This document shows, one piece after another, positions 3,295 to 36,340 of a DNA stretch of 39,622 bases. Position numbers and translations under genes: made by a program. Where the stretch lies: the IMG/VR virus record IMGVR_UViG_3300023284_000826, positions 1 to 39,622 of that record, one strand, 5' to 3'. The first letter of the stretch is position 1. Every line of letters starts with the position of its first letter. Below the pieces are notes generated by a model, which was not told the DNA's origin, did not search any database, and worked only from the letters and a program-made list of their open reading frames with translations. This DNA is from a virus.

Positions 3295-4182
3295 ATGGCA
3301 GACCCAACAAGAATCGTAGGTGGTAATATAGCGGGCCAGGATCATGAAGGTATCATGGCTCAGGTAACCAAAAACGCGGAGTTAAGAACTCTTAATTCTG
3401 ATTTCTGGACAAACGTTCAGGCTGGATTAGTGCCGGGATATTCTATTGCACATAAATTTGGTAGTAATTTAAATGCAGGTACAACATTGCAGGATATCTG
3501 GTCAACAGGTGGATTCTTTAAATGGGCGACAGTGGCTGCTCCATTAGAAGCAATATCTTCAAGCGCCGATGATACAGCAGCAGGGACAGGTGCAAGAGTC
3601 ATTACTGTAGAAGGACTTGATGCGGATTTTAAAGAAATATCGGAAGATATTGTAATGAACGGTATTTTAGTAACAACTACCACAATTAAAAATTTCATTC
3701 GAGTTCAGAGAGTTTTTGTCAAAGATGCTGGAACATATACGACAACAATCGACGGAAGTAATTTAGGAACGATAACAATACGATTTGAAAGTGCAGGAGA
3801 TATCCAATCAACTATCGAAGTGAATACAGTTGCATCGATCGGAGTCGGGCAATCAGAGCAATCATTATTTACAATCCCCGCAGGAAAATCAGGTTTTCTT
3901 CATTCCTCCTTTGTTAATGTAGATGCAGTTAAAGCAGCAACTTTTTATTTTTGGCAAAGACAAAATGCTGATGTTATTACAGCGCCCTTCTCATCAAGAA
4001 GGCTTATATTTAGATTAGATGGGATATCAGGGGCATCATTTTTCAACCCTGATACACCTATAGGTTCAAGTGGTTTTCCTGAAAAAACAGATCTATGGAT
4101 GAGTTCTGTTGCAAGCTTATCAAATACGATTGTTGAATCAGATTTTGAAATAGTATTAATCGACAATGATTTTATTTCTTAA
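3295..4182 (+). CDS. Virion structural protein candidate (beta-rich)
   Basis: 295 residues, rich in Thr/Ser/Val/Ile, with alternating beta-type segments and no membrane helix. The N-terminal third holds KFGSNLNAGTTLQDIWSTGG followed by SSSADDTAAGTGARVITVEGLD. I associate this layout with phage virion-associated proteins of unknown structure, but I cannot name a family with certainty. AAAGGA precedes the ATG. The next gene follows after 2 bases. Confidence 0.75.
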   Translation: MADPTRIVGGNIAGQDHEGIMAQVTKNAELRTLNSDFWTNVQAGLVPGYSIAHKFGSNLNAGTTLQDIWSTGGFFKWATVAAPLEAISSSADDTAAGTGARVITVEGLDADFKEISEDIVMNGILVTTTTIKNFIRVQRVFVKDAGTYTTTIDGSNLGTITIRFESAGDIQSTIEVNTVASIGVGQSEQSLFTIPAGKSGFLHSSFVNVDAVKAATFYFWQRQNADVITAPFSSRRLIFRLDGISGASFFNPDTPIGSSGFPEKTDLWMSSVASLSNTIVESDFEIVLIDNDFIS

Positions 4183-4184
4183 AA

Positions 4185-4418
4185 ATGGGACAAGAAAAAC
4201 AGACAACATCATTTGATATGAATACTTTTATTTTATCAGTTTCTTTTTTCTTTGCCCTAGCATCTTTCACCTTTACCATAGTTTCATGGGGTAATATTAA
4301 CGGTCGAATGAAAGTAATTGAATGGTCTGTTGGGGATTTAGAACAATTTCAAATTGATTTTGAGAAGTACCGTAGCGATTTATATGATCGAGTAATAACA
4401 GAAAAGGGGGAGTCATGA
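4185..4418 (+). CDS. Small membrane protein, one TM then coiled coil
   Basis: 77 residues: a short polar N-terminus, one strong TM helix at about 13-34 (TFILSVSFFFALASFTFTIV), and a charged helical C-terminal half. Gene size, position after virion genes and the run of similar TM genes fit a lysis-type cluster (holin or inner spanin), but no endolysin is recognisable nearby. ATG lies 2 bases after the previous stop; its own stop overlaps the next ATG (ATGA). Confidence 0.7.
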   Translation: MGQEKQTTSFDMNTFILSVSFFFALASFTFTIVSWGNINGRMKVIEWSVGDLEQFQIDFEKYRSDLYDRVITEKGES

Positions 4419-9246: not shown

Positions 9247-9390
9247 ATGAAGATTAAGACGAAGATTTTTTGGAAAGATTTTATGGAGCTTATTTTTATA
9301 ATTTTTTTAATGATTATTATACCTATTATAGCATTTATGATTGGAGCTTTTATCGTAGGGATTATTTTGGGTATGGAGATTTTTAAATGA
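9247..9390 (+). CDS. 47-residue membrane protein
   Basis: Basic N-terminus (MKIKTKIFWKDF) followed by one long or two short hydrophobic helices (ELIFIIFLMIIIPIIAF, then GAFIVGIILGMEIF). AAAGGA precedes the ATG; its stop overlaps the next ATG (ATGA). Unknown role. Confidence 0.6.
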   Translation: MKIKTKIFWKDFMELIFIIFLMIIIPIIAFMIGAFIVGIILGMEIFK

Positions 9391-9857
9391 TCCTAGCAAT
9401 AGACCCCGGAACATACGCGAGTGCTTATGTTGTGTGGGATGAAAAGAAAGAAGAAATTAGAGAAATGGGAATAATATTTAATAATTCAATTATAGAATTT
9501 TTTCTTATAGACAGAAAAAATGCAGAAGAACATTGCGTAATAGAATTTATTCAGTGTCAAGGAAAAGTAGTAGGGGATGAAACATTTCACACTGCTAAAT
9601 GGGTTGGAAGGTTCGAGCAAGCATGGGGTGATGAGACGGTTTTAATGTACCGCAGAGAGGTATTGGTTCATCTTTTAGGAACAACGCGCACAGGGGGCAA
9701 GAGTTCAGATTCTCTTATAACACAAGCCCTTGTCAAAAGGTTCGGATATAAAAGCCTGGCAGAAGCAAAAAGAGGAAAACTAAAGGGAGTTAAATTCCAT
9801 ATATGGTCAGCATTAGCAGTGGCAGTGACTTATGGGGATAAATTAAAGGATAAATAA
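9387..9857 (+). CDS. RuvC-like Holliday junction resolvase / RNase H-fold nuclease
   Basis: 156 residues. The N-terminal MILAIDPGTYASAYVVW has the RuvC first motif (Asp6 in IDPGT), VIEFIQCQGK supplies Glu53, and the C-terminal KFHIWSALAVAVTYG matches the last helix, with Asp108 and His138 as further metal-ligand candidates. Length is close to bacterial RuvC (about 170). It would resolve branched DNA from replication or recombination before packaging. It lies a few genes upstream of the ERF/YqaJ pair. Confidence 0.8.
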   Translation: MILAIDPGTYASAYVVWDEKKEEIREMGIIFNNSIIEFFLIDRKNAEEHCVIEFIQCQGKVVGDETFHTAKWVGRFEQAWGDETVLMYRREVLVHLLGTTRTGGKSSDSLITQALVKRFGYKSLAEAKRGKLKGVKFHIWSALAVAVTYGDKLKDK

Positions 9858-10709: not shown

Positions 10710-10871
10710 GTGAGATCGTTAAATCAAAAAGATTGGATAATTATTATCTTAGTGAGCATATTTTTTCAGTTAGCTATGATTAAGAATGACATCGTGGAAT
10801 TTACCACTATGTATAGTGAGTTACAGTGCGGCCCAAAAAGCTATACCGAGGATGGTACAGAACCTCATTAA
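10710..10871 (+). CDS. 53-residue membrane protein
   Basis: GTG start with GGAG six bases upstream. After VRSLNQKDW comes one TM helix (IIIILVSIFFQLAMI), then a polar, probably external tail with one Cys (LQCGPKSYTEDGTEPH). Small and unrecognised. It follows the tRNA-like element by 17 bases. Confidence 0.55.
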   Translation: MRSLNQKDWIIIILVSIFFQLAMIKNDIVEFTTMYSELQCGPKSYTEDGTEPH

Positions 10872-10936
10872 AAAGTTTCTATTAACACGTGACTGTAATA
10901 GTTGTTCTCAATGATAACCAAAAAAGGAGAGAAACA

Positions 10937-11143
10937 ATGATAGAAAGAGAATTGATCGCGGATATTAAAGGGGCGTTAGTTTTGCCGAAAACTTTGCTTA
11001 CTTTATTTCCTGAGAGACATGTAATTACTAATGAAGAGGAGATAAAAAATCTTGCTGATGCTATCGCAGCAATCAAAACTATCGAAGAAAAACTAAAAGA
11101 ACTCGACTCTTTACTTGAGGAAATACAAAAGGAGCAGAAATAA
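10937..11143 (+). CDS. Small helical protein upstream of ERF
   Basis: 68 residues from ATG 10937, which has AAAAAGGAGAG in good position (a longer GTG-started frame from 10889 lacks one). It ends in a coiled coil (IKTIEEKLKELDSLLEEIQK). TAATG overlap with the ERF gene suggests co-translation, so an accessory role in recombination is possible but unproven. Confidence 0.65.
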   Translation: MIERELIADIKGALVLPKTLLTLFPERHVITNEEEIKNLADAIAAIKTIEEKLKELDSLLEEIQKEQK

Positions 11144-11850
11144 TGAGCCAAGATACAGAGATTGTACCAGAAAAATCTAATCAATCTTCGTTGATGTCCG
11201 ATACGATAAATTATGCAATAAAAAAAGATGTAAGTATCGAGGAGCTGGAAAGGCTGCTTGTTGTTAAAGAGCGATGGGAGGCTAATGAAGCAAAGAAGTC
11301 TTACTATAAAGCCATGTCACAATTTAAGGCCAATCCTCCAGTTATTACCAAAGATAAATTTAACAAACAATATGGTTCAAGATATACGAGTATTGAGAAC
11401 CTTGTCAATACAACCAATCCGGAATTAAGTAAACAAGACCTGTCGTCTCGATGGAATATTGAACAAAATGGAATAATAAAAGTTACTTGTTTTATTACAC
11501 ATCAACAAGGATATTCAGAATCTGCGTGTGTTTCTGGCCCCGCTGATACATCTGGTTCAAAGAATACAATTCAGCAAATAAAATCAACTATTACTTATCT
11601 AAAAGGAATAACGTTTGAATCTATTTGTGGGCTTGCTTCAACAGAAGCTAATTTAGATGACGATGGCCAAGCTGCAACCGATGAATTAATAAGCACTGAA
11701 CAATTAAACAAGATGAGCGCTTTGATTAAAGAGAAGGGGAGGACAGAAGAATCTTTTGCCGAACATCTTAAGTTGGAAAGTTTGGCAGACCTACGTAAAA
11801 AAGATTATCAGACTGCTATTTCAACTATAAAAAATGCGGTTAAGAAATGA
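11143..11850 (+). CDS. erf: ERF-family single-strand annealing recombinase
   Basis: 235 residues. Diagnostic stretches in order: AKKSYYKAMSQFKANPPVI (about 46-64), YTSIENLVNTTNPELSK, VTCFITHQQGYSES, then SGSKNTIQQIKSTITYLKG and GLASTEANLDDDGQ. These are hallmarks of the ERF superfamily, which anneals complementary single strands in phage recombination and genome circularisation. The C-terminal quarter is a helical domain, as usual. It overlaps the YqaJ exonuclease gene by 4 bases, a Red-like exonuclease/annealing pair. Confidence 0.9.
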   Translation: MSQDTEIVPEKSNQSSLMSDTINYAIKKDVSIEELERLLVVKERWEANEAKKSYYKAMSQFKANPPVITKDKFNKQYGSRYTSIENLVNTTNPELSKQDLSSRWNIEQNGIIKVTCFITHQQGYSESACVSGPADTSGSKNTIQQIKSTITYLKGITFESICGLASTEANLDDDGQAATDELISTEQLNKMSALIKEKGRTEESFAEHLKLESLADLRKKDYQTAISTIKNAVKK

Positions 11851-27107: not shown

Positions 27108-28037
27108 ATGGCAGGACAAATATTTGCAATAAACTCTTTGGGTGGTTTTTTCACTAACAATGAATTGTCAAGAAGGGTTCGTCACGCGGCGCAACCTTTG
27201 ATGAAGTTTCGGCAGTTTGTTGACGCGGAACCGGCGGCAGGAAGATCAAGAGGAGATAAAGTCTTTTTTGACAAAATTTCCAATATCGCAACTGCCGGTG
27301 GAACGTTAAATGAAACATCCACAATTCCAAAGACAAATTTCGTTATCAGGCAAGGGACTTTAACAGTAACAGAATATGGGAATTCTATTCCGTTTACTTT
27401 GAAGTCACAGACCTTAACGGAGATCAGTGTTCCTGAAAACATTCGTACTGTTTTAAGGAATGATATGGCCAAAGTCCTTGATTCCGCGGCAGCTACAGAG
27501 TATACGTCAGCAAAGATCAAGGCCGTTGCTTCAGATACGGCAACAACCGTATTCACAAGTGATGGGACGGCAACTGTAACAGCAACTGCTAATATGTCAG
27601 ATAAAAACGTTCGGGATGTGATCGATCAGATGAAGAAAGAGAACTTTCCACGTTTTGACGGAAACAATTATATTAGCATTTCGTCAACCAATTCGATTAG
27701 AGGTCTTTATGATTTCTTTGAGGCAAAAGCTCAATTAACAACGATGCAACCGTTATTTGAGGGAGAGGTTGGCAGGTATTATGGTTGTAGGTTCATTGAA
27801 GAAACTAATTTCCTTTCTAATGTTATTGGTAGTGGAACAGATAAAGGGGAAGCAGTTTTCTTTGGGGGAGATTCAGTTCGTGAAGGAATGGTTATTCCTG
27901 AGAATGTCCGGATTGATATTCCAAAAGACTTTGGCCGGGATCAGGGAATTGCCTGGTATGCCTTAACAGGTTTTGTTAAGACATGGGACAAAGTATCCGA
28001 TGGTGAAGCTCGTATTATTCATTTAACATCAGCATAA
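27108..28037 (+). CDS. Major capsid protein
   Basis: 309 residues, alpha/beta, with MKFRQFVDAEPAAGRSRGDK and VFFDKISNIATAGGTLNETS near the start and GIAWYALTGFVKTWDKVSDG near the end. The LNETSTIPKT-type loop and LKSQTLTEISVPENIR helix are typical of HK97-fold capsid proteins of this size. Scaffold upstream and a decoration candidate downstream agree. Forms the icosahedral shell. Confidence 0.8.
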   Translation: MAGQIFAINSLGGFFTNNELSRRVRHAAQPLMKFRQFVDAEPAAGRSRGDKVFFDKISNIATAGGTLNETSTIPKTNFVIRQGTLTVTEYGNSIPFTLKSQTLTEISVPENIRTVLRNDMAKVLDSAAATEYTSAKIKAVASDTATTVFTSDGTATVTATANMSDKNVRDVIDQMKKENFPRFDGNNYISISSTNSIRGLYDFFEAKAQLTTMQPLFEGEVGRYYGCRFIEETNFLSNVIGSGTDKGEAVFFGGDSVREGMVIPENVRIDIPKDFGRDQGIAWYALTGFVKTWDKVSDGEARIIHLTSA

Positions 28038-28050
28038 GGAGGGTTACGAA

Positions 28051-28464
28051 ATGTCAAGATCATATTCCGATCCTTCTTATGGATCAAAAAAAGTGTTAGT
28101 AATGAATAAGACAGGTTCTACGGTTGGGACGTCTGCCGGTACTGATTTAATTCAGAGTACCACAAGGACAGAGTTCCCGATCATTGTTTCAGATGTTACA
28201 TTGCATTATGTAGCGGGTGGAACAAGTACGGTTAAGAGTCTTGTTCTTAACACCAAGTTGGCAGGTACGGGGGCAAATGTAGGAATTGGGACTATTGCTC
28301 TTGGGACCAATGTGACTGGTGGAGTACGGGACGGAGCTTTAACTTCAACAACTATGGCCGCAGGTGATGATTTAATGTTCACCTTCGTTGGAACAGATGC
28401 CATCGTGGCTGATGTTCGAGCGCATGTCACATATGTTGAGAGTTACGTTCAGAGTGACACGTAA
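28051..28464 (+). CDS. Head decoration/stabilisation protein candidate
   Basis: 137 residues, Gly/Thr/Val-rich beta sandwich type (VSDVTLHYVAGGTSTVKSLV ... DDLMFTFVGTDAIVADVRAH). Strong AAGGAGG ribosome site. Directly after the capsid gene, so a capsid decoration protein is likely; no diagnostic motif. Confidence 0.55.
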   Translation: MSRSYSDPSYGSKKVLVMNKTGSTVGTSAGTDLIQSTTRTEFPIIVSDVTLHYVAGGTSTVKSLVLNTKLAGTGANVGIGTIALGTNVTGGVRDGALTSTTMAAGDDLMFTFVGTDAIVADVRAHVTYVESYVQSDT

Positions 28465-28479: not shown

Positions 28480-29544
28480 GTGAAAAAGGTATTAATATCC
28501 AGGTATGGGGCTTTTGGAGATATTATCCATTGTTCGCATCTCCCTCGTTTATTAAAAGAAAACGGTTATGATTACGTGGCGTTTGAGACCAATTATAAAG
28601 GCACGCAGCTTTTATCTCATAATCCGTTCATTGACAAAATGATGTTTTTTGAACCGTCAGATTGTATGGCGGTATATTCTTCAATCACTTTGATGAAAAG
28701 ACACTGGGATGATATCTCCAGAGATTATGATAAGTTTATAAATTTATTTTGGTCATTGGAGCATTCGATCATTGCGATGGAAGACGATCCTGAATATTAC
28801 ATGCATTCAGATGCTCGAAAGTTTATGCGAGAAATAAATTTTTATGATCAAACGTCTAAATGGGCAGGGTTCCCTGAATTGATGGGTAAGTATAAAGGCG
28901 AGATTTGGTATACAACGGAAGAAAAACGGATCGTTGAAAAGTGGATGAAGAAGTTCGAGGAAAAATTTATTTTAATGATAAATCTTACCGGTACGACCAT
29001 CCATAAAGTTCTTTTAGATTATCAGGAATATATTGATTATGTTCTTGATAATTACCCGGATGCACATGTAATAACAACAGGTGACGAAACTTGTAAAGAT
29101 TTAGTAAAAGAAACGGACAGAATAACGAACATCGCGGGAAAGTTTCCGTTTAGGCAGGCGGCACACATTATCAGATATGTTAATAGTGTCTTAACGATGG
29201 AATCCGGGATAGGAGTTGTTGGAAATATGTGGGGGACTCCCACTGTTCAGTTAATGACTTCAAGCAGCATTAAAAATCATCCGAATGGATGTAGTGGTGA
29301 TTTCAGTTTACAGTCACCGGCAAGATGTTCACCTTGTTCTAAAGGTCCGTACAAATTTATAGGATGTCCCAGCGAGAATGGATATCCTTTGTGTGTATAT
29401 TTTGATAAAAGAAAAGTAAAGGATAGACTTGATGAAACTTACAGGGCATATCAAGAGGACAGGTTCTCTATCGAGGATAGATTTTCCGGCGAAAATGTTA
29501 ATGCGGTGTCCTTTGTGCCAGAACCAACATCCGATATTTGTTAG
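28480..29544 (+). CDS. GT9 (heptosyltransferase-type) glycosyltransferase, copy 1
   Basis: 354 residues, GTG start after GGGGGAG. The N-terminus VLISRYGAFGDIIHCSHLPR is the GT9 motif (R-x-GA-x-GD); the C-terminal domain has FILMINLTGTTIHKV and VLTMESGIGVVGNMWGTPTV, then a Cys cluster (CSPCSKGP...C...C). Family members move heptose or related sugars from nucleotide-sugar donors. Inside a head module this may modify virion proteins, phage DNA or host surface sugars; the target cannot be read from sequence. Confidence 0.8.
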   Translation: MKKVLISRYGAFGDIIHCSHLPRLLKENGYDYVAFETNYKGTQLLSHNPFIDKMMFFEPSDCMAVYSSITLMKRHWDDISRDYDKFINLFWSLEHSIIAMEDDPEYYMHSDARKFMREINFYDQTSKWAGFPELMGKYKGEIWYTTEEKRIVEKWMKKFEEKFILMINLTGTTIHKVLLDYQEYIDYVLDNYPDAHVITTGDETCKDLVKETDRITNIAGKFPFRQAAHIIRYVNSVLTMESGIGVVGNMWGTPTVQLMTSSSIKNHPNGCSGDFSLQSPARCSPCSKGPYKFIGCPSENGYPLCVYFDKRKVKDRLDETYRAYQEDRFSIEDRFSGENVNAVSFVPEPTSDIC

Positions 29545-30250
29545 AGGTATAGTCAGGGATTTAGAAAATGAGTCGATGGATACTTGCATAGACAGGGGCT
29601 ATGCTTTCTGTAATTGCCGGAATATATTTTATACCGATTGGGATAATATTGATCAAAGAATATATGACCAGGCTTATTTTGACAAATATCAATTCAATGA
29701 TTCTAAAAAGGTTTATGGTGAATATGTAAAAAAATATTTTCCTATAATTACAGAACATAAAGATATTAAGAAATTTTGTGAGATAGGGGCTATCAATAAT
29801 ACTTTATTGGATTTCGGAAAAGATAAGCTGGGATGGGAAACAATACGACTGGATATCAATTCTGCTTCTACGGACAAAAATCATAGGATTATAACGGGAG
29901 ATATTGAAGACCCTTTAATTGTTAATAAATTACAGGATATTGATTGTATGTGGATGAGCCATTTGCTCGAACATTTAAAAGACCCGATACAAACTTTGAA
30001 GAATGTAAAGAATTGTTTAGCGGATGGAGGGCTTGTTTTTATAGCTATGCCTGATCCGTATTTTATCGATTGGGCTACGCCCAGTACGTGGGGGCATTGG
30101 GCTTTAAGAGAACATCACATAATGTGGGATATGGAATCTTTTTTACAGTTGACGAGAGAACTTGGATTTAAAACTATTTATTCCAAAAGAAATTTAGTTT
30201 CCGATAAATTTATTTGTTGCATGGATTATCATATAATTTTAAAAAAATGA
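29495..30250 (+). CDS. SAM-type methyltransferase with zinc ribbon, copy 1
   Basis: About 251 residues. The frame opens at 29429, but MLMRCPLCQNQ at 29495-29501 is a more natural start. CPLC and CNC form a small zinc ribbon; KKFCEIGAINNTLLDFGKDK is at the SAM-binding position but has lost the usual GxGxG; DCMWMSHLLEHLKDPIQTL and LADGGLVFIAMPDP are the later class I motifs. Methylation of a sugar such as O-methylation is plausible beside GT9. The weak glycine motif makes activity less sure than in copy 2. Confidence 0.7.
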   Translation: MLMRCPLCQNQHPIFVRGIVRDLENESMDTCIDRGYAFCNCRNIFYTDWDNIDQRIYDQAYFDKYQFNDSKKVYGEYVKKYFPIITEHKDIKKFCEIGAINNTLLDFGKDKLGWETIRLDINSASTDKNHRIITGDIEDPLIVNKLQDIDCMWMSHLLEHLKDPIQTLKNVKNCLADGGLVFIAMPDPYFIDWATPSTWGHWALREHHIMWDMESFLQLTRELGFKTIYSKRNLVSDKFICCMDYHIILKK

Positions 30251-31311
30251 AAAAAGCGTTAGTCATTAGATGCGGTGCTTTAGGAGATATGATTATTATT
30301 TCTCCGGTATTTCGTATTCTTAAAGATTTAGGATACAGAACTTATTGTTATACAGGAAAACGTGGCCTTAACGTTCTTAAATACAATCCTTATATCGACG
30401 AATTTATTGAATATGAAAAAGAAGGGCAGGAGAATCCTGACATTCAGAAAGACTGGGATGATGTAAAGAATAGGATTAAACCGGATTGGTTTAAGAATTT
30501 CTCTGAAAGCATTGAAGTCAATCTTGCACTGCATCCTTTATCACCGGCATATTATTATCCCAAGAATGAACGACGAGAGAGGTGTGATAAAAATTATTAC
30601 GATGAAACATTAAGGTGGGCTGGGTTTGGAGAATTAAATAATTTAACGCCCGAGCTTTTTATTTCAGACGATGAGGAGAAACAAGCTTTAAGCCGGCTGA
30701 GGAAAGGGAAAATAAATATTGTCTGGGGAATGTCCGGATCAGCAGGGAATAAAGCGTATCCATGGACAGATTATGTAATGGGAGAAGTTATCAAGGAATT
30801 TAAAGATGTCCATTTCATGACGGTAGGTGATAACCGGTGCAAAATTCTTGAGTACGTTGAAGACCCTGAGATTATTAAACACGTGACGAATTTATCGGGA
30901 GAAATTAGTTTTAGAGAAACAATCGCATTGACAAAAGTTGTTGACTTGGTTATCAGCCCGGATACAGGAACGCTTCACGCTTCAGGAGCATGGGACACAT
31001 ACAAGATCGGAATTCTCGGGCATACAACCATTGAGAATATCACAAAATATTTCAAGAATGATTATAGCCTTGAGGCTGATCCACAGAAGTCTGAATGTTC
31101 GCCGTGTTTCAGATTAATTTATGACCATACTTATCAATGCCCCATAGATATTGCATCGAAAGCGGCATGGTGCATGCATTACGGACAACCGGCTGACAGA
31201 TTATTTGAACAAGTCAAGAAAGTCATTGAAAGGATTTATGACGACAGTAGAAACCGAAAAACAAGAACACATTCACAGGGTGTATCAGAAAAAGTGTCCT
31301 GTTTGTCTTAG
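30247..31311 (+). CDS. GT9 (heptosyltransferase-type) glycosyltransferase, copy 2
   Basis: 354 residues from the ATGA overlap (30247). ALVIRCGALGDMIIISPVFR is a clear GT9 N-terminal motif; INIVWGMSGSAGNKAYPW, VVDLVISPDTGTLHASGAWD and the Cys cluster CSPCFRLIYDHTYQC follow in order. Same family and size as copy 1 but well diverged, so it probably adds a different residue or acts on a different acceptor. Confidence 0.85.
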   Translation: MKKALVIRCGALGDMIIISPVFRILKDLGYRTYCYTGKRGLNVLKYNPYIDEFIEYEKEGQENPDIQKDWDDVKNRIKPDWFKNFSESIEVNLALHPLSPAYYYPKNERRERCDKNYYDETLRWAGFGELNNLTPELFISDDEEKQALSRLRKGKINIVWGMSGSAGNKAYPWTDYVMGEVIKEFKDVHFMTVGDNRCKILEYVEDPEIIKHVTNLSGEISFRETIALTKVVDLVISPDTGTLHASGAWDTYKIGILGHTTIENITKYFKNDYSLEADPQKSECSPCFRLIYDHTYQCPIDIASKAAWCMHYGQPADRLFEQVKKVIERIYDDSRNRKTRTHSQGVSEKVSCLS

Positions 31312-32014
31312 ACCAACATTGTACGCCAACAGCATTGCCGAAGATCCGGAACTGAAAAACTCGGCTCTCTGGTATCGGTGTATGTGCGGGATTATTTTTC
31401 AAGAGAATGTTCACGATAAAGTTTTAAAGGATCAAAAATTTATCGAAGACCACAAAGAGATCAAAGAATCCAGAGAGACGGAAACCCACGCGGCCAGAAT
31501 TTATTCTGGAGTTCTTGAGTGTTTAACATACGGACGTAAATTTCTCGACATAGGTTTTGGAACCGGTCAGGTGATGCAATATTTTGTAGATAGAGGGTGG
31601 GTTTCATTCGGGATGGATAGCAATAAGGACATCAAAGAGACAGATCGAATTTTTCAAGATGATTTTGAGTTAACGAATAAGTTAGGTAGAGAGCAATATG
31701 ATTTAGTTTGGATGTCATTTATTCTTGAGAAGTTTCATAATCCCATATTAGCATTGAAAAAGGCTTATGACATTTTACAGGAAGACGGTGTTATTTATAT
31801 TTCAACACCGGATATCGATTTTCATTTTTCAAAGCCTACGGATCAATGGACACATTGGAATATGAAAGAAAATTATATAATGTGGTCAGAGAAAGCACTA
31901 TGCGCGGAACTTGAGAAGATAGGATTTAACATTATTATCAAACGCAGGAATTTCAATAAAGCATTCGGTTATTATTTTGATTTACAAATCATCGCTCAAA
32001 AAGTTTATTTTTAA
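31238..32014 (+). CDS. SAM-type methyltransferase with zinc ribbon, copy 2
   Basis: 258 residues from ATG 31238 (AAAGGATTT upstream; a longer frame from 31151 lies inside the GT9 gene). CPVC and CMC form a zinc ribbon; KFLDIGFGTGQVMQYFVDRG is a full class I SAM motif; YDLVWMSFILEKFHNPILAL and LQEDGVIYISTPDIDFHFSK match later motifs. It shares the HW(N/A)xxE(N/H)xIMW-type segment with copy 1. It overlaps the GT9 gene by 74 bases. Confidence 0.8.
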   Translation: MTTVETEKQEHIHRVYQKKCPVCLRPTLYANSIAEDPELKNSALWYRCMCGIIFQENVHDKVLKDQKFIEDHKEIKESRETETHAARIYSGVLECLTYGRKFLDIGFGTGQVMQYFVDRGWVSFGMDSNKDIKETDRIFQDDFELTNKLGREQYDLVWMSFILEKFHNPILALKKAYDILQEDGVIYISTPDIDFHFSKPTDQWTHWNMKENYIMWSEKALCAELEKIGFNIIIKRRNFNKAFGYYFDLQIIAQKVYF

Positions 32015-32029
32015 AAAAGGAGATAAAAT

Positions 32030-32452
32030 ATGGCAGCATTTGATGATGCAACAGTAACGATTGATACAGGGGAGATGACCTATACGGACAGACATGAACA
32101 AAAGCATGTTGTCAATAACGCAGAGACTTTTGTTTTTGAATTAGTCGCCGCATCGACGGGGGCAAGATACACCATCAAGTCGGATAGTCTGGCATTAGCA
32201 ACAGGTGAAAGACTTGAATTAGAACTAGATAAAGTGTTTTCAAGCTTTCAGGTTCCTACAGACGCAACCGCGGCTCTGAATGCGGGTTCTTTGTGGATAA
32301 GAGAGACCGATGGATATCGGGCCGAATGGAAAATACGAAGTATCACGATTAATAATGTTGACGAGCCGACGGTCATTACAGCGGCAAAATTTGAACGAGT
32401 TGACAATCCGGTCATTACAATGACTTTAACCAATATCACCGTTACTCAATAA
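32030..32452 (+). CDS. Virion structural protein candidate, 140 residues
   Basis: Beta-rich, Thr/Glu-rich: DTGEMTYTDRHEQKHVVNNA, then RLELELDKVFSSFQVPTDAT and MTLTNITVTQ at the end. Strong AAAAAAGGAG ribosome site. Its place between the glycosylation cassette and tail genes fits a minor capsid or decoration protein. Confidence 0.6.
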   Translation: MAAFDDATVTIDTGEMTYTDRHEQKHVVNNAETFVFELVAASTGARYTIKSDSLALATGERLELELDKVFSSFQVPTDATAALNAGSLWIRETDGYRAEWKIRSITINNVDEPTVITAAKFERVDNPVITMTLTNITVTQ

Positions 32453-32460
32453 GGAAAATC

Positions 32461-32616
32461 ATGGTTAAAAAAACAGATATTGAAAAATCCGCTGAACAGC
32501 GTCAAAAGTTTCAGCAGGAAAGAACAGAAAGAGTCCAAAAAGATTCTTCAAAGGCATCCTTTAATAAAGACGGTAAGGACGTGAGTTTTAATTTTAATGA
32601 GGGAAAGTTTGAATGA
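32461..32616 (+). CDS. 51-residue charged protein
   Basis: MVKKTDIEKSAEQRQKFQQE, then a Lys/Ser/Asp-rich tail. Polar, probably helical then disordered. ATGA overlap with the next gene. Unknown minor virion or assembly protein. Confidence 0.55.
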   Translation: MVKKTDIEKSAEQRQKFQQERTERVQKDSSKASFNKDGKDVSFNFNEGKFE

Positions 32617-33164
32617 TATTTGATTATCTTCCAAACGCTAATTTTTTACGTGATGTAATTTTTTGGGTAGATGGTCTTAATGGTCTTAATCCATTGCGTG
32701 ATCGTAAGAATAAGACAGCTTATACGACCGCGAATTTGACGATTCCGACCTTTTCTCATAGAGGTGGAGATATGACGTTTAACAATACGTCGTCTTTAGT
32801 GACCGTCGGGGATACTGGTGAAACAATGAAGGCTGTCCAATTCTGGGTTAATCCTACCACGAGTACAGAGTTCTTTTTGACTTTGGGTGCGGGTGGTGAA
32901 GTGGTTCAATCTTCTACGGGAACTTTGTCGGCAAATAACTGGACATCCCCGACGATTTATATTAATGGTTCACAAACAACAACCTTACCTACAGGATCAT
33001 TTTCATTAGTCACAGTGAATACAGATACAGGATTTTCAGCGGACAATGTTCTTATTGGCAAGGTATCGACGAATTTTATGCAGGGCATTATGACACAGGT
33101 CATTGGGTTTAATAAAACTCTCACATTAGATGAACATCGAGAGGTTTTTAATAAATTCATGTAA
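32613..33164 (+). CDS. Lectin/LamG-like virion protein candidate
   Basis: 183 residues with FWVDGLNGLNPLRDRKNKTA, SSLVTVGDTGETMKAVQFWV, NNWTSPTIYINGSQTTTLP and a C-terminal MTQVIGFNKTLTLDEHREVF. The strand pattern and the final FNKTLTxDE motif are typical of concanavalin/LamG-type phage proteins that bind sugars. May decorate the virion or help host binding. Confidence 0.65.
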   Translation: MIFDYLPNANFLRDVIFWVDGLNGLNPLRDRKNKTAYTTANLTIPTFSHRGGDMTFNNTSSLVTVGDTGETMKAVQFWVNPTTSTEFFLTLGAGGEVVQSSTGTLSANNWTSPTIYINGSQTTTLPTGSFSLVTVNTDTGFSADNVLIGKVSTNFMQGIMTQVIGFNKTLTLDEHREVFNKFM

Positions 33165-33174
33165 AGGATAAGAC

Positions 33175-34191
33175 ATGCTACTAACCTTCAGAGAAATACA
33201 GCGCAGAGTTCAGGCAAAAATACAAAATACCAATGCCTCAACATCCAATGCCGATGATCTTCTTCCAAAGATTAAGGATTGGATTAATATCCGGTATGAC
33301 CGGGTTTATAGAAGTTTTGACTGGATATGTACGACAGAAACACAAGATCTTCAAATTGTGGCCAGTCAGCAGGAATATATTTTTAATCGGGATATCGGCA
33401 AGATCATTTCTATATTTGACAGAACAAACGGGGTTCCCGTCCATGAGGATACGATTGAGAATCATATTAGAAATAATGGCATAGATTTTGATCAGACCGG
33501 AAACATTCAAAGGGACGATCCGTCAAGATACCGGATGGTCGGGGAATATACCGTAAGGAATGAAATAGGTGCGTCCGCCGAAACAATCAATGTTGTATCA
33601 ACGAACAACACAACAGATATTGCACCTAATGTGGTACGTATTGTTGGGCTAGTTAATGGGGTGGAAATTGGAGAAAATATCACTTTAACCGGAACAACAA
33701 CAGCGACGAGCATAAATACTTATGACGCCAATCAAAAATTGAAAGTATCGGTCGGAACATCGGACGGGACAAGAAATACTATAGTTGGAAAAATTACAGC
33801 TTCAGGAACAACATCATCAACAATATTTTCTGATATCGCTCCAACGGAGTTCGCTCATATGTACAGATGGATCAGGGTATCCCCGCAGCCTTTGACAGGT
33901 GCGACTCAACCGGTGTGGGAAGTTTGGTATCAAAAAGTCTTGAGATTCTTAGAAGATAATAATGACATCACGGTCATTGACTGTGGTATGGAGCTTGTTC
34001 AGGGAGCGTTCGCGGATTCTCTGCGAGAAGATGGTCTTGAACAAGAAGCCAGCCTGGCAGAGCAGAAATTTGTCAGCATGGTTCAGGAATTGCAATCTGC
34101 TCAAAGACAACCGAATCTAATGGAACAGTTTATGCCGGAAACCAAAAGACCTATTAAAATCCTGGATTTTGGGAGAGTGGTGACACGATAG
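33175..34191 (+). CDS. Head-tail adaptor protein candidate
   Basis: 338 residues. The N-terminal helical part (LTFREIQRRVQAKIQNTNAS, LLPKIKDWINIRYDRVYRSF) resembles phage adaptor proteins that dock under the portal. A Thr/Ser-rich beta domain (about 140-215) and a helical end follow. Position between capsid-region genes and the tail stabilisation protein agrees. Its ribosome site and first 31 codons are duplicated at 20438-20545. Confidence 0.65.
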   Translation: MLLTFREIQRRVQAKIQNTNASTSNADDLLPKIKDWINIRYDRVYRSFDWICTTETQDLQIVASQQEYIFNRDIGKIISIFDRTNGVPVHEDTIENHIRNNGIDFDQTGNIQRDDPSRYRMVGEYTVRNEIGASAETINVVSTNNTTDIAPNVVRIVGLVNGVEIGENITLTGTTTATSINTYDANQKLKVSVGTSDGTRNTIVGKITASGTTSSTIFSDIAPTEFAHMYRWIRVSPQPLTGATQPVWEVWYQKVLRFLEDNNDITVIDCGMELVQGAFADSLREDGLEQEASLAEQKFVSMVQELQSAQRQPNLMEQFMPETKRPIKILDFGRVVTR

Positions 34192-34192
34192 T

Positions 34193-36340
34193 ATGCCAAT
34201 CACAAGAGAAAAAAATAGGATAAGGGTTCAGTCCTTTAATGGCGGAGAAGATTCTACATCCGAGCCCGCGGTTGTTCAACAGAACTTTGCCACTATTTTA
34301 AGAAATGGTGTCATTAAAGAACTGGGTAAAGTCAAACAGAGAGAAGGAATTGATAGAATAGGTGATAATCCCGACACTCTGGTAAGTCATTATAAGTTCG
34401 ATGCGTCCAGTTCCGAGGATGATAAGGGGTCGAATACCGGAGTTGATACGTCTATTGCTTACGTTGACGGAAAGTTTGGTAAGGCCCCATCGTTTAACGG
34501 AACAACTTCCAAGATCACTGTCGCGGCGGATTCAACGATTGATATTACGACAATCGATGACTTTACGTTTACATGCTGGGTTTTCCCTGATAGTGATGGA
34601 CAGCTTGATACTGGCCGGATATGGACAAAAGGCAGCAGTTTTGTCCAAGTTCAGAATGAATCTTCAAATACCGTTAAAATCCGTTTTGTCGTGGATTATG
34701 ACACGACAGATGCCGAGGTTATAACATCTACGACAATCAATATTGGAGAATTTACAAAATTAGAATTTATCCATAATACCGATAATTCACTAGATATCGT
34801 TATCAACGGGGTTATTGCTACATATTCAACCGATACGACCGGTGTAGGTAGTCTGGTGGATGATTCAAGCGATGATCTGGTGATAGGCAACAATACAGGT
34901 CAAACACAGACATTTGATGGAGAGATTGATGATTTTAGGATTTATAACGCCCCGAGAGTAGCAAATGATTTTGAACAGGATAAGATTTTCGGGATAACCC
35001 GGTATACAGTAGGAACCACGATTGATCGTATTTTCAGGATCAGAGACACGAATCTTGAACGATTAGATGATGATTTTAAAGGATACACGGTTATTGATTC
35101 CGGATTTACTGCGGATTTAACAACAAATTTTGTACAGGCTAAAGATTTACTTTTCATTCTTAACGGTACTGAAAATGTCCATTCAATGGATTCCGCGGAG
35201 ACTGTGACCGATGAAGGAAATACTAATACAGACCCACCAAGAACAACTGTTGGGGCGTGGGCCCAAAATAACAGATTGTTTGTTGGGGGTTCTCTAACCG
35301 AAGCCGAACGGGATTTTATATGGTTCAGTGATTCTCTTGATCCACAGACATTCGATCAGGCAACAAATGTTTTCAAAGTTCGGTCCGGTTCATCCGGTAG
35401 AGTGACATGGTTACAGACATTCAAATTAAACGAGATGATTATTTATAAGGATGATTCGGTTTTTGTCTTGAATATGACAGGTGCGACACCTTTGACAGAT
35501 TGGACGTTGGAACCTGTTAATGTTGAGGTTGGATGTAAAGCCGGACGCACAGTCCAGGATATCGGAAATGATCATGTTTTTCTGGATAATGAAAATAGAG
35601 TTAGGTTGCTTCAAAGAACTACGTTTGATAAATTGCAAACAGCGGTTATTTCCGACCGTGTGCAGAGTATTCTTGATACGATCAATGTGGATGCCGTGGA
35701 AAAAGCGGCGTCATGGTTTATTGACGGCAAGTATTATCTCGCTATTCCTACAGGAACACAGACCGAGAATGATGTTGTTTTGGTATGGGATACGGCAGCA
35801 GCACGGTTAATTGGAAGAGAAGATACCGGATGGTCAGTTATTCCTTCAGGGGAATGGTTTGCTTCCGTGTTTACCGAGTTTGAGTTTGGCGATAACAAAT
35901 TGAGATTAGTCTTCGGAGATAACAGAACAGTATCTTTGACTTACAAGCAATCCGGTAACAATGATAACGGTGCTGCAATCAGGATGCGTATAGCCGGTCA
36001 AGATCATGATTTAGGCAATCGAGGATCAGATAAGATATGGGGGCCGTTGCATGTTGTGTGGGATGCCGGAGAAAGCACATCCGTTGAAATATTCGCCGAG
36101 ATAGACAGGGGTGGACGGCGTTCTTTGGGAACATTGTCTTTGAGCGGGGGAGCCCCTGTCTTACCTATTGATTTACCTTTTGATTTGGGAGGGAGTGCGA
36201 AAGCATCCGATGTTTTCTTTGTTAAACAGATCGGAAGAGGCAAGACGTGCCGCATTGAAGTCGAGCATGACACGTTTAACGTTCAACCGACGTTTACAGA
36301 ATATGAATTGTTTGCCGAAGAGAGGATTACACGCGCGTGA
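34193..36340 (+). CDS. P22-type tail stabilisation (propeller) protein with inserted LamG domain
   Basis: 715 residues. Residues 1-60 (RIRVQSFNGGEDSTSEPAVV...) and 265-715 (TIDRIFRIRDTNLERLDDDF, GAWAQNNRLFVGGSLTEAER, RVTWLQTFKLNEMIIYKDDS) look like one propeller-type tail protein. About 62-262 is a LamG/concanavalin domain (LVSHYKFDASSSEDDKG, FNGTTSKITVAADSTIDITT, DLVIGNNTGQTQTFDGEIDD). The core would plug or stabilise the short tail; the LamG insert may bind a surface glycan. The P22 comparison rests on pattern and position. Confidence 0.65.
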   Translation: MPITREKNRIRVQSFNGGEDSTSEPAVVQQNFATILRNGVIKELGKVKQREGIDRIGDNPDTLVSHYKFDASSSEDDKGSNTGVDTSIAYVDGKFGKAPSFNGTTSKITVAADSTIDITTIDDFTFTCWVFPDSDGQLDTGRIWTKGSSFVQVQNESSNTVKIRFVVDYDTTDAEVITSTTINIGEFTKLEFIHNTDNSLDIVINGVIATYSTDTTGVGSLVDDSSDDLVIGNNTGQTQTFDGEIDDFRIYNAPRVANDFEQDKIFGITRYTVGTTIDRIFRIRDTNLERLDDDFKGYTVIDSGFTADLTTNFVQAKDLLFILNGTENVHSMDSAETVTDEGNTNTDPPRTTVGAWAQNNRLFVGGSLTEAERDFIWFSDSLDPQTFDQATNVFKVRSGSSGRVTWLQTFKLNEMIIYKDDSVFVLNMTGATPLTDWTLEPVNVEVGCKAGRTVQDIGNDHVFLDNENRVRLLQRTTFDKLQTAVISDRVQSILDTINVDAVEKAASWFIDGKYYLAIPTGTQTENDVVLVWDTAAARLIGREDTGWSVIPSGEWFASVFTEFEFGDNKLRLVFGDNRTVSLTYKQSGNNDNGAAIRMRIAGQDHDLGNRGSDKIWGPLHVVWDAGESTSVEIFAEIDRGGRRSLGTLSLSGGAPVLPIDLPFDLGGSAKASDVFFVKQIGRGKTCRIEVEHDTFNVQPTFTEYELFAEERITRA

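Follow-up and report, generated by a model that had tools for sequence, protein, structure and literature searches.

Why would a virus place two glycosyltransferases and two methyltransferases among the genes of its head? The question is raised by a 39,622-base virus record of IMG/VR (IMGVR_UViG_3300023284_000826), the whole of which is called the window here. Behind its major capsid protein (MCP) gene lie a small gene, dec, and four enzyme genes in the order GT1, MT1, GT2 and MT2, that is, two transferases of the GT9 type, each followed by a methyltransferase. Comparison of related loci revealed that dec, GT1 and MT1 travel together and that GT2 and MT2 belong to the backbone of the phage. 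We consider it fairly probable that these enzymes glycosylate the virion and that the dec product is their main acceptor. The genes concerned are the following.

27108 to 28037, + strand: MCP of phrog_1357 type (PHROG 5.2e-14; Pfam Phage_capsid_3), the constant gene on the upstream side of the block that is exchanged.
28051 to 28464, + strand: dec, 137 amino acids (aa), 26% Ser+Thr; probably decorates the capsid and probably accepts the glycan.
28480 to 29544, + strand: GT1, divergent GT9-type glycosyltransferase with a GTG start; GT-B/GT9 fold match, 27% identical to GT2.
29432 to 30250, + strand: MT1, class I methyltransferase with an N-terminal Cys4 ribbon; Methyltransf_23 1.9e-14; AlphaFold2 model with pLDDT 83.
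30247 to 31311, + strand: GT2, GT9-type glycosyltransferase; Pfam GT9 6.9e-10.
31238 to 32014, + strand: MT2, class I methyltransferase with an N-terminal Cys4 ribbon and ATG start at 31238; Methyltransf_23 6.2e-19; ribosome site GAAAGGA.

Searches of IMG/VR with alignment queries yielded 79 GT2-type loci, 23 GT1-type loci and the best 80 of 535 capsid loci. These 80 ranked highest against a profile in which cassette carriers made up most of the sequences, and counts drawn from them are not family-wide frequencies. They comprised 72 distinct capsid loci, and the 22 close ones with at least 6.5 kb of downstream sequence were used to count gene order. A scan of close relatives with GT1 alone as query returned nothing, and alignment queries were needed. 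A GT9-type gene was located downstream of the capsid gene in 22/22 of the close loci and upstream of it in none of the 34 loci with as much upstream sequence. Conversely, all GT9-type loci with 3 kb of upstream sequence had a capsid gene there (67/67 and 19/19). The exact order GT1-MT1-GT2-MT2, between which other genes may intervene, was present in 15 of the 22 comparable loci, and the four-gene order is thus not unique to the window; an earlier reading of its sequence (the original prediction) had known of no described system with this order. Among ten more distant capsids, a GT2-like gene was found in seven and none in three.

Loci were classed by the first transferase after dec as GT9 (31), GT4 (11) or MptE-like (1). 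This type required nine changes on the capsid tree, at least four of them forced by supported branches, versus two, the minimum, on the dec tree. At 74-90% capsid identity, dec identity was 0.19 between types versus 0.50 within types. Between-type differences were absent for scaffold, portal, terminase, GT2 and MT2 in the lower identity bins, and in the top bin were either absent or smaller than that of dec. Three loci (L013, L018 and L149) had capsids 95-97% identical, GT2 75-79% and MT2 74-77% identical, dec proteins only 16-17% identical, and first transferases of three families. Nucleotide homology between L013 and L149 fell to background near the MCP stop codon and was back at about the GT2 start, and the same pattern was seen between L018 and L149. 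The converse was found in L002 and L082, where dec (91%), GT1 (89%) and MT1 (92%, partial at a contig end) were nearly identical but the capsid (65%) and portal (39%) were not.

Divergence among the GT9-type loci gave the same picture. With MCP divergence removed, the partial correlation of dec with GT1 was 0.66 (p 0.002), and after reduction to a single locus per dec cluster it was 0.39 (p 0.0035), these permutation p-values ignoring shared ancestry. The corresponding values given MCP were −0.09 for dec with GT2 and −0.02 for GT1 with GT2. Given GT1, the correlation of dec with MCP was 0.05, although dec begins only 14 nt after the capsid gene. Tree changes, swap cases and partial correlations together indicate that dec, GT1 and MT1 form the travelling unit and GT2-MT2 stays with the backbone. 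The doubled cassette of the original prediction therefore does not behave as one unit. The fact that dec co-varies with GT1 favours a virion protein as the target.

The next genes of the head module bear on which virion protein would be modified.

32030 to 32452, + strand: 140-aa protein of unassigned function, probable second small head protein, found after MT2 in many loci.
32613 to 33164, + strand: 183-aa protein of unassigned function in the head module, an open reading frame (ORF) call; L116 and L135 have homologues in the corresponding position.
33175 to 34191, + strand: SU10-type head-tail adaptor (Pfam SU10_adaptor 3.5e-9), the downstream end of the island.

It is possible, if unlikely, that the virion is glycosylated mainly on the capsid protein, the 140-aa protein or a tail protein instead of dec. 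In mycobacteriophages the acceptors are the capsid and tail tube proteins (PMC12619734), and the 140-aa protein co-varied moderately with GT2 (0.34) and MT2 (0.30). However, transferase types differed on capsids that were 95-97% identical and GT1 did not follow the capsid, while L002 and L003 carry the cassette with no gene like that at 32030 between MT2 and the adaptor. The 140-aa protein, with partial correlations of 0.50 with the adaptor and −0.16 with dec, follows the backbone in its variation, not dec.

The window holds the compact form of a larger island. This part of the head operon is 3.5 kb long in the window and reaches roughly 6-10 kb in relatives, where, in most GT9-type loci, GT1-MT1 precede the variable glycan genes and GT2-MT2 follow. 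The interval from dec to the adaptor also holds genes for GT-A and GT4 transferases, sugar C-methyltransferases (Methyltransf_13/14), a DegT aminotransferase with FdtA, RMNT_CmcI, hexapeptide acetyltransferases, radical SAM proteins and an MptE-like protein. That these are glycan genes was counted in favour of virion glycosylation. In distant relatives a fusion of a methyltransferase with GT9 (MT-GT9) occupies the place of the island, with a GT8 domain too in two cases, and in some of them the GT9 part was recognised only by a purpose-built profile. The fused methyltransferase belongs to another subfamily, which points to functional coupling of methyl transfer with GT9 and not to one common origin. 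At L018 (7485-9907) an MptE-like domain fused to a methyltransferase replaces GT1, and a radical SAM gene is next; the MptE-like protein has a weak match to the flagellin-modification protein PseD. L010 carries small genes between GT9 and methyltransferase genes (10753-11424, 9337-9762), at least one of which appeared HNH-endonuclease-like by eye.

The four enzymes were assigned from sequence profiles and models. GT2 scored above the Pfam GT9 (PF01075) cut-off (39.1 bits versus 22, E 6.9e-10), and GT1 on its own scored under it (18.4 versus 22 bits). The two are 27% identical (E 7e-34). The AlphaFold2 model of GT1 (pLDDT 67, moderate confidence) matched 3TOV, WaaF and WaaC best (E 1e-11 to 1e-7), followed by TibC. 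A structure-based family assignment had been proposed earlier as a check, and with the model closest to GT9 structures, GT1 is, as modelled, a divergent GT9 enzyme with the GT-B fold. The catalytic-base Asp motif RxG..GD was present in 41/45 GT1 homologues and 93/103 GT2 homologues. Toward its C-terminus GT1 has a CxxC...C...C motif that almost every homologue retains. This cysteine finger was rejected as proof of protein glycosylation of the TibC type, since the barrel domain is absent and many GT9 proteins of the lipopolysaccharide (LPS) type have cysteines of this kind. GT2 starts at ATG 30247, with an ATGA overlap with MT1.

MT1 and MT2 both match Methyltransf_23 and are 26% identical (E 9e-23). 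The original prediction had taken both pairs for diverged duplicates, and the identities within the GT and MT pairs bear this out. Recent duplication was rejected, as GT1 forms one clade and MT1 and MT2 form reciprocal clades across many phages. Cysteines C4, C7, C38 and C40 of MT1 did not vary among 14 homologues, and 67/68 had the CxxC...CxC pattern; with this conserved Cys4 pattern, a putative metal site, the earlier label of zinc ribbon is a fair description. Fold searches returned generic methyltransferases only (3L8D, 3CC8), which give no pointer to the substrate. Motif I for S-adenosylmethionine (SAM) is relaxed: GxG is rare across these methyltransferases, and D/E-x-G with a later acidic residue persists. 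From its sequence MT1 is predicted to be active, which is likely but not certain, and its SAM binding is less sure. The ratio of nonsynonymous to synonymous substitution rates (dN/dS) did not exceed 0.17 in any case that allowed dS to be estimated, and GT1 and MT1 are under purifying selection. The start of MT2 was corrected from TTG 31151 to ATG 31238. MT1 has two candidate starts, ATG 29432, with AAAGGA about 10 nt upstream, and ATG 29495; the former is probably used. A start at 29432 would give an overlap of GT1 and MT1 of 113 nt (29432-29544). L002 and L003 show conservation of this additional N-terminal part of MT1, which the overlapping GT1 frame could explain.

As the original prediction stated, the four genes overlap within the head module; all lie on the + strand. 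From MCP through the 140-aa gene, neighbouring genes overlap or are separated by about 15 nt, and good ribosome sites precede most starts; that of dec is strong. Promoter-like sites were not above chance and terminator-like sites only about one standard deviation above it; gene spacing and ribosome sites are therefore the basis of the operon claim. The window also encodes ERF and YqaJ recombination proteins, a Terminase_3 large subunit and an SU10-type portal in addition to the adaptor. The 715-aa protein after the adaptor (34193-36340) has a Laminin_G_3/concanavalin-like domain at residues 103-256 (E 8e-17), by which a head-closure or tail protein could possibly bind glycans.

The enzymes could instead modify the LPS core or another surface glycan of the host late in infection, leading to superinfection exclusion or keeping progeny off debris. 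GT9 enzymes typically work on the LPS core at the cytoplasmic face, where a flippase is unnecessary. GT2 matched heptosyltransferase models weakly (NCBIfam heptosyltransferase II, 7e-8, under the cut-off of the model), and surface modification is the usual reading for pelagimyophage transferases (PMC7029224). This proposal does not predict that dec should switch type together with the first transferase, and the enzymes are fixed inside the head module beside capsid and dec. In addition, the four proteins are free of strongly hydrophobic segments, the highest 19-residue mean being 1.77 in GT2. We regard host modification as improbable, though it is the strongest of the competing explanations. 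The original prediction had named virion proteins or host surface glycans as targets late in infection; the genes are real, under selection and locked to the capsid gene, and the co-variation of dec with GT1 favours the former. Glycosylation and methylation of phage DNA bases would be a further use for such enzymes, and some phage transferases do glycosylate DNA (Pyle 2024, as cited in PMC12619734). The location of the enzymes among head genes and their coupling to dec argue against it, and no base-hydroxylating or thymidylate-synthase-like partner was found among the window ORFs scanned, a scan that passed over some small ORFs in a record that may be partial. We give this explanation hardly any credence.

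Several points weigh against virion glycosylation with dec as acceptor. GT9 enzymes are known above all from the synthesis of the LPS core, and the activity of MT1 is not assured because the GxG of SAM motif I is absent. The dec protein matched no database family or phage record, and is presumed to be a virion protein from its position and size. It probably is a decoration protein, as originally named: the position behind the capsid gene supports the name, while database families and phage records offer no match. Its likeness to small post-capsid proteins of isolates was marginal. Linkage can itself produce co-transfer. A control was provided by 13 loci with a C-methyltransferase gene between dec and GT1, where dec correlated with GT1 (0.70) and not with the intervening gene (−0.17); this signal vanishes without L126, L130 and L132 and counts as one contrast. 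Finally, in L026 and L135 GT1 was changed and the dec type was not.

These last points raise the proposal that the genes are linked cargo at an insertion-tolerant site, swapped as blocks by homologous recombination in MCP and GT2 with no specificity of enzyme for acceptor. Homology is present near both borders, as recombination needs, many variable genes occupy the same interval, and one clade has GT1 changed and dec unchanged. But dec always changes along with the transferase family, it follows GT1 and not the adjoining MCP, and purifying selection acts on GT1 and MT1. Linked cargo is accordingly judged very unlikely.

Virion glycosylation could proceed as follows. Late in infection, cytoplasmic GT9 enzymes would be made alongside the head proteins and would draw sugars from the nucleotide-sugar pool of the host, perhaps ADP-heptose. 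GT1 would start a glycan on dec, and MT1 would methylate the sugar added by GT1. GT2-MT2, the conserved second pair, may extend or cap the glycan or modify a second surface protein, and larger islands would build a longer, type-specific glycan. Methylation of the sugars is predicted from the genes, helped by the MT-GT9 fusions at the same place in distant relatives. Differing dec types may require differing initiating enzymes, which would explain exchange as a unit. Swapping dec and its transferase while capsid and GT2-MT2 stay constant would then change the coat type without a change of capsid, and the altered surface would presumably benefit the phage. It is possible that the locus thus acts as a serotype locus, in which swapped dec, transferase and methyltransferase cassettes give near-identical capsids different methylated glycan coats; we put this forward tentatively, judging its chances slightly short of even.

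Cultured phages with related capsids (38-40% identical) were Vibrio 219E41.1, Vibrio 1.232.O, E. coli PTXU04 and E. coli Bas95. No transferase was annotated between their capsid and adaptor genes, where few small ORFs were found; Vibrio 1.232.O also has an HNH nuclease there. Searches of phage isolate records with tblastn gave no match for GT1, GT2, MT2 or dec. When genomes were scanned for hosts, the only finds were two phage-like contigs, both in one Magnetococcales metagenome-assembled genome. These related contigs (L180 and L181) carry capsid, dec and an MT-GT9 fusion and differ in coverage, and their binning is a weak hint of a Magnetococcales host. The capsid gene itself is interrupted in some relatives. 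In L019 the gene is split in pieces, and positions 3974-4231, in that region, match a group I intron (Rfam RF00028, 66 bits). At L005 (5700-6290), and similarly in L016, some 570 bp break up the capsid ORF; they are HNH endonuclease-like and have no Rfam intron match, possibly an unrecognised intron.

Glycosylation of tailed-phage virions is documented in few cases, and no description of this locus was found in the open-access literature, to which our search was directed. Here an uncultured capsid lineage appears to devote part of its head operon to glycosylation, and exchange on a constant capsid suggests that these phages cover their own particles with sugars and vary that coat. Such modular exchange points to selection on the particle surface type. 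A serotype locus, if true, would be a viral counterpart of O-antigen and pilin-glycosylation variation and would shape how environmental phages interact with hosts, predators, surfaces and antibodies. With dec as a concrete probable acceptor, GT1 as its matched enzyme, and L013/L018/L149 and L002/L082 as natural swap experiments, the acceptor question can be approached without isolating the phage.

Mycobacteriophage virions have glycosylated capsid and tail tube proteins (PMC12363180, PMC12619734), and glycosylation there involves Che8 gp110, Corndog gp38 and Myrna (Freeman et al. 2023, as cited in PMC12363180 and PMC12619734). The present locus likewise encodes phage glycosyltransferases, proposed from the genes alone to act on virion head proteins. 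It differs in its GT9-type enzymes with paired methyltransferases in the head operon, in the linked gene for a probable acceptor and in cassette exchange. A tblastn search of phage records, rather than a direct comparison with the mycobacteriophage enzymes, found no relative. TibC, a bacterial autotransporter heptosyltransferase (PMC4358343), shares with GT1 the GT-B fold match, the conserved catalytic Asp and finger-like CxxC...C...C cysteines toward the C-terminus. GT1 lacks its N-terminal beta-barrel, the GT domain beginning at residue 1, and is 10-12% identical to it; the cysteine spacing is x2-x9/10-x8/10 here versus x2-x15-x11 in TibC, and the GT1 model matched TibC more weakly than LPS-type GT9 structures. 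Prophage seroconversion (gtr) clusters differ from this locus, as a simple hydropathy scan of the four proteins showed no strongly hydrophobic segment, and the island families found in relatives included no flippase or membrane-bound transferase genes of gtr type.

Polymorphic flagellin glycosylation islands of Aeromonas (PMC7874193) also place variable transferase, methyltransferase and sugar-nucleotide genes beside a structural gene; the locus described here is viral, more compact and GT9-based, and no pseudaminic acid genes were seen in it. In the pilin cassettes pilA-tfpO and pilA-tfpW of P. aeruginosa, the gene of a surface protein is followed by that of its own transferase (PMC11841053). 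As in those cassettes, unrelated transferases here accompany different types of the same probable acceptor, and types of dec and transferase switch jointly on a constant background (nine versus two changes, the triplet and L002/L082). The differences are that the presumed acceptor is a phage head protein, that the enzymes are soluble and of GT9 or GT4 type, and that action of transferase on acceptor is proposed from the genes. By its anatomy and mode of exchange the locus thus resembles the mycobacteriophage, pilin and flagellin systems, and its logic may be that of a pilin cassette.

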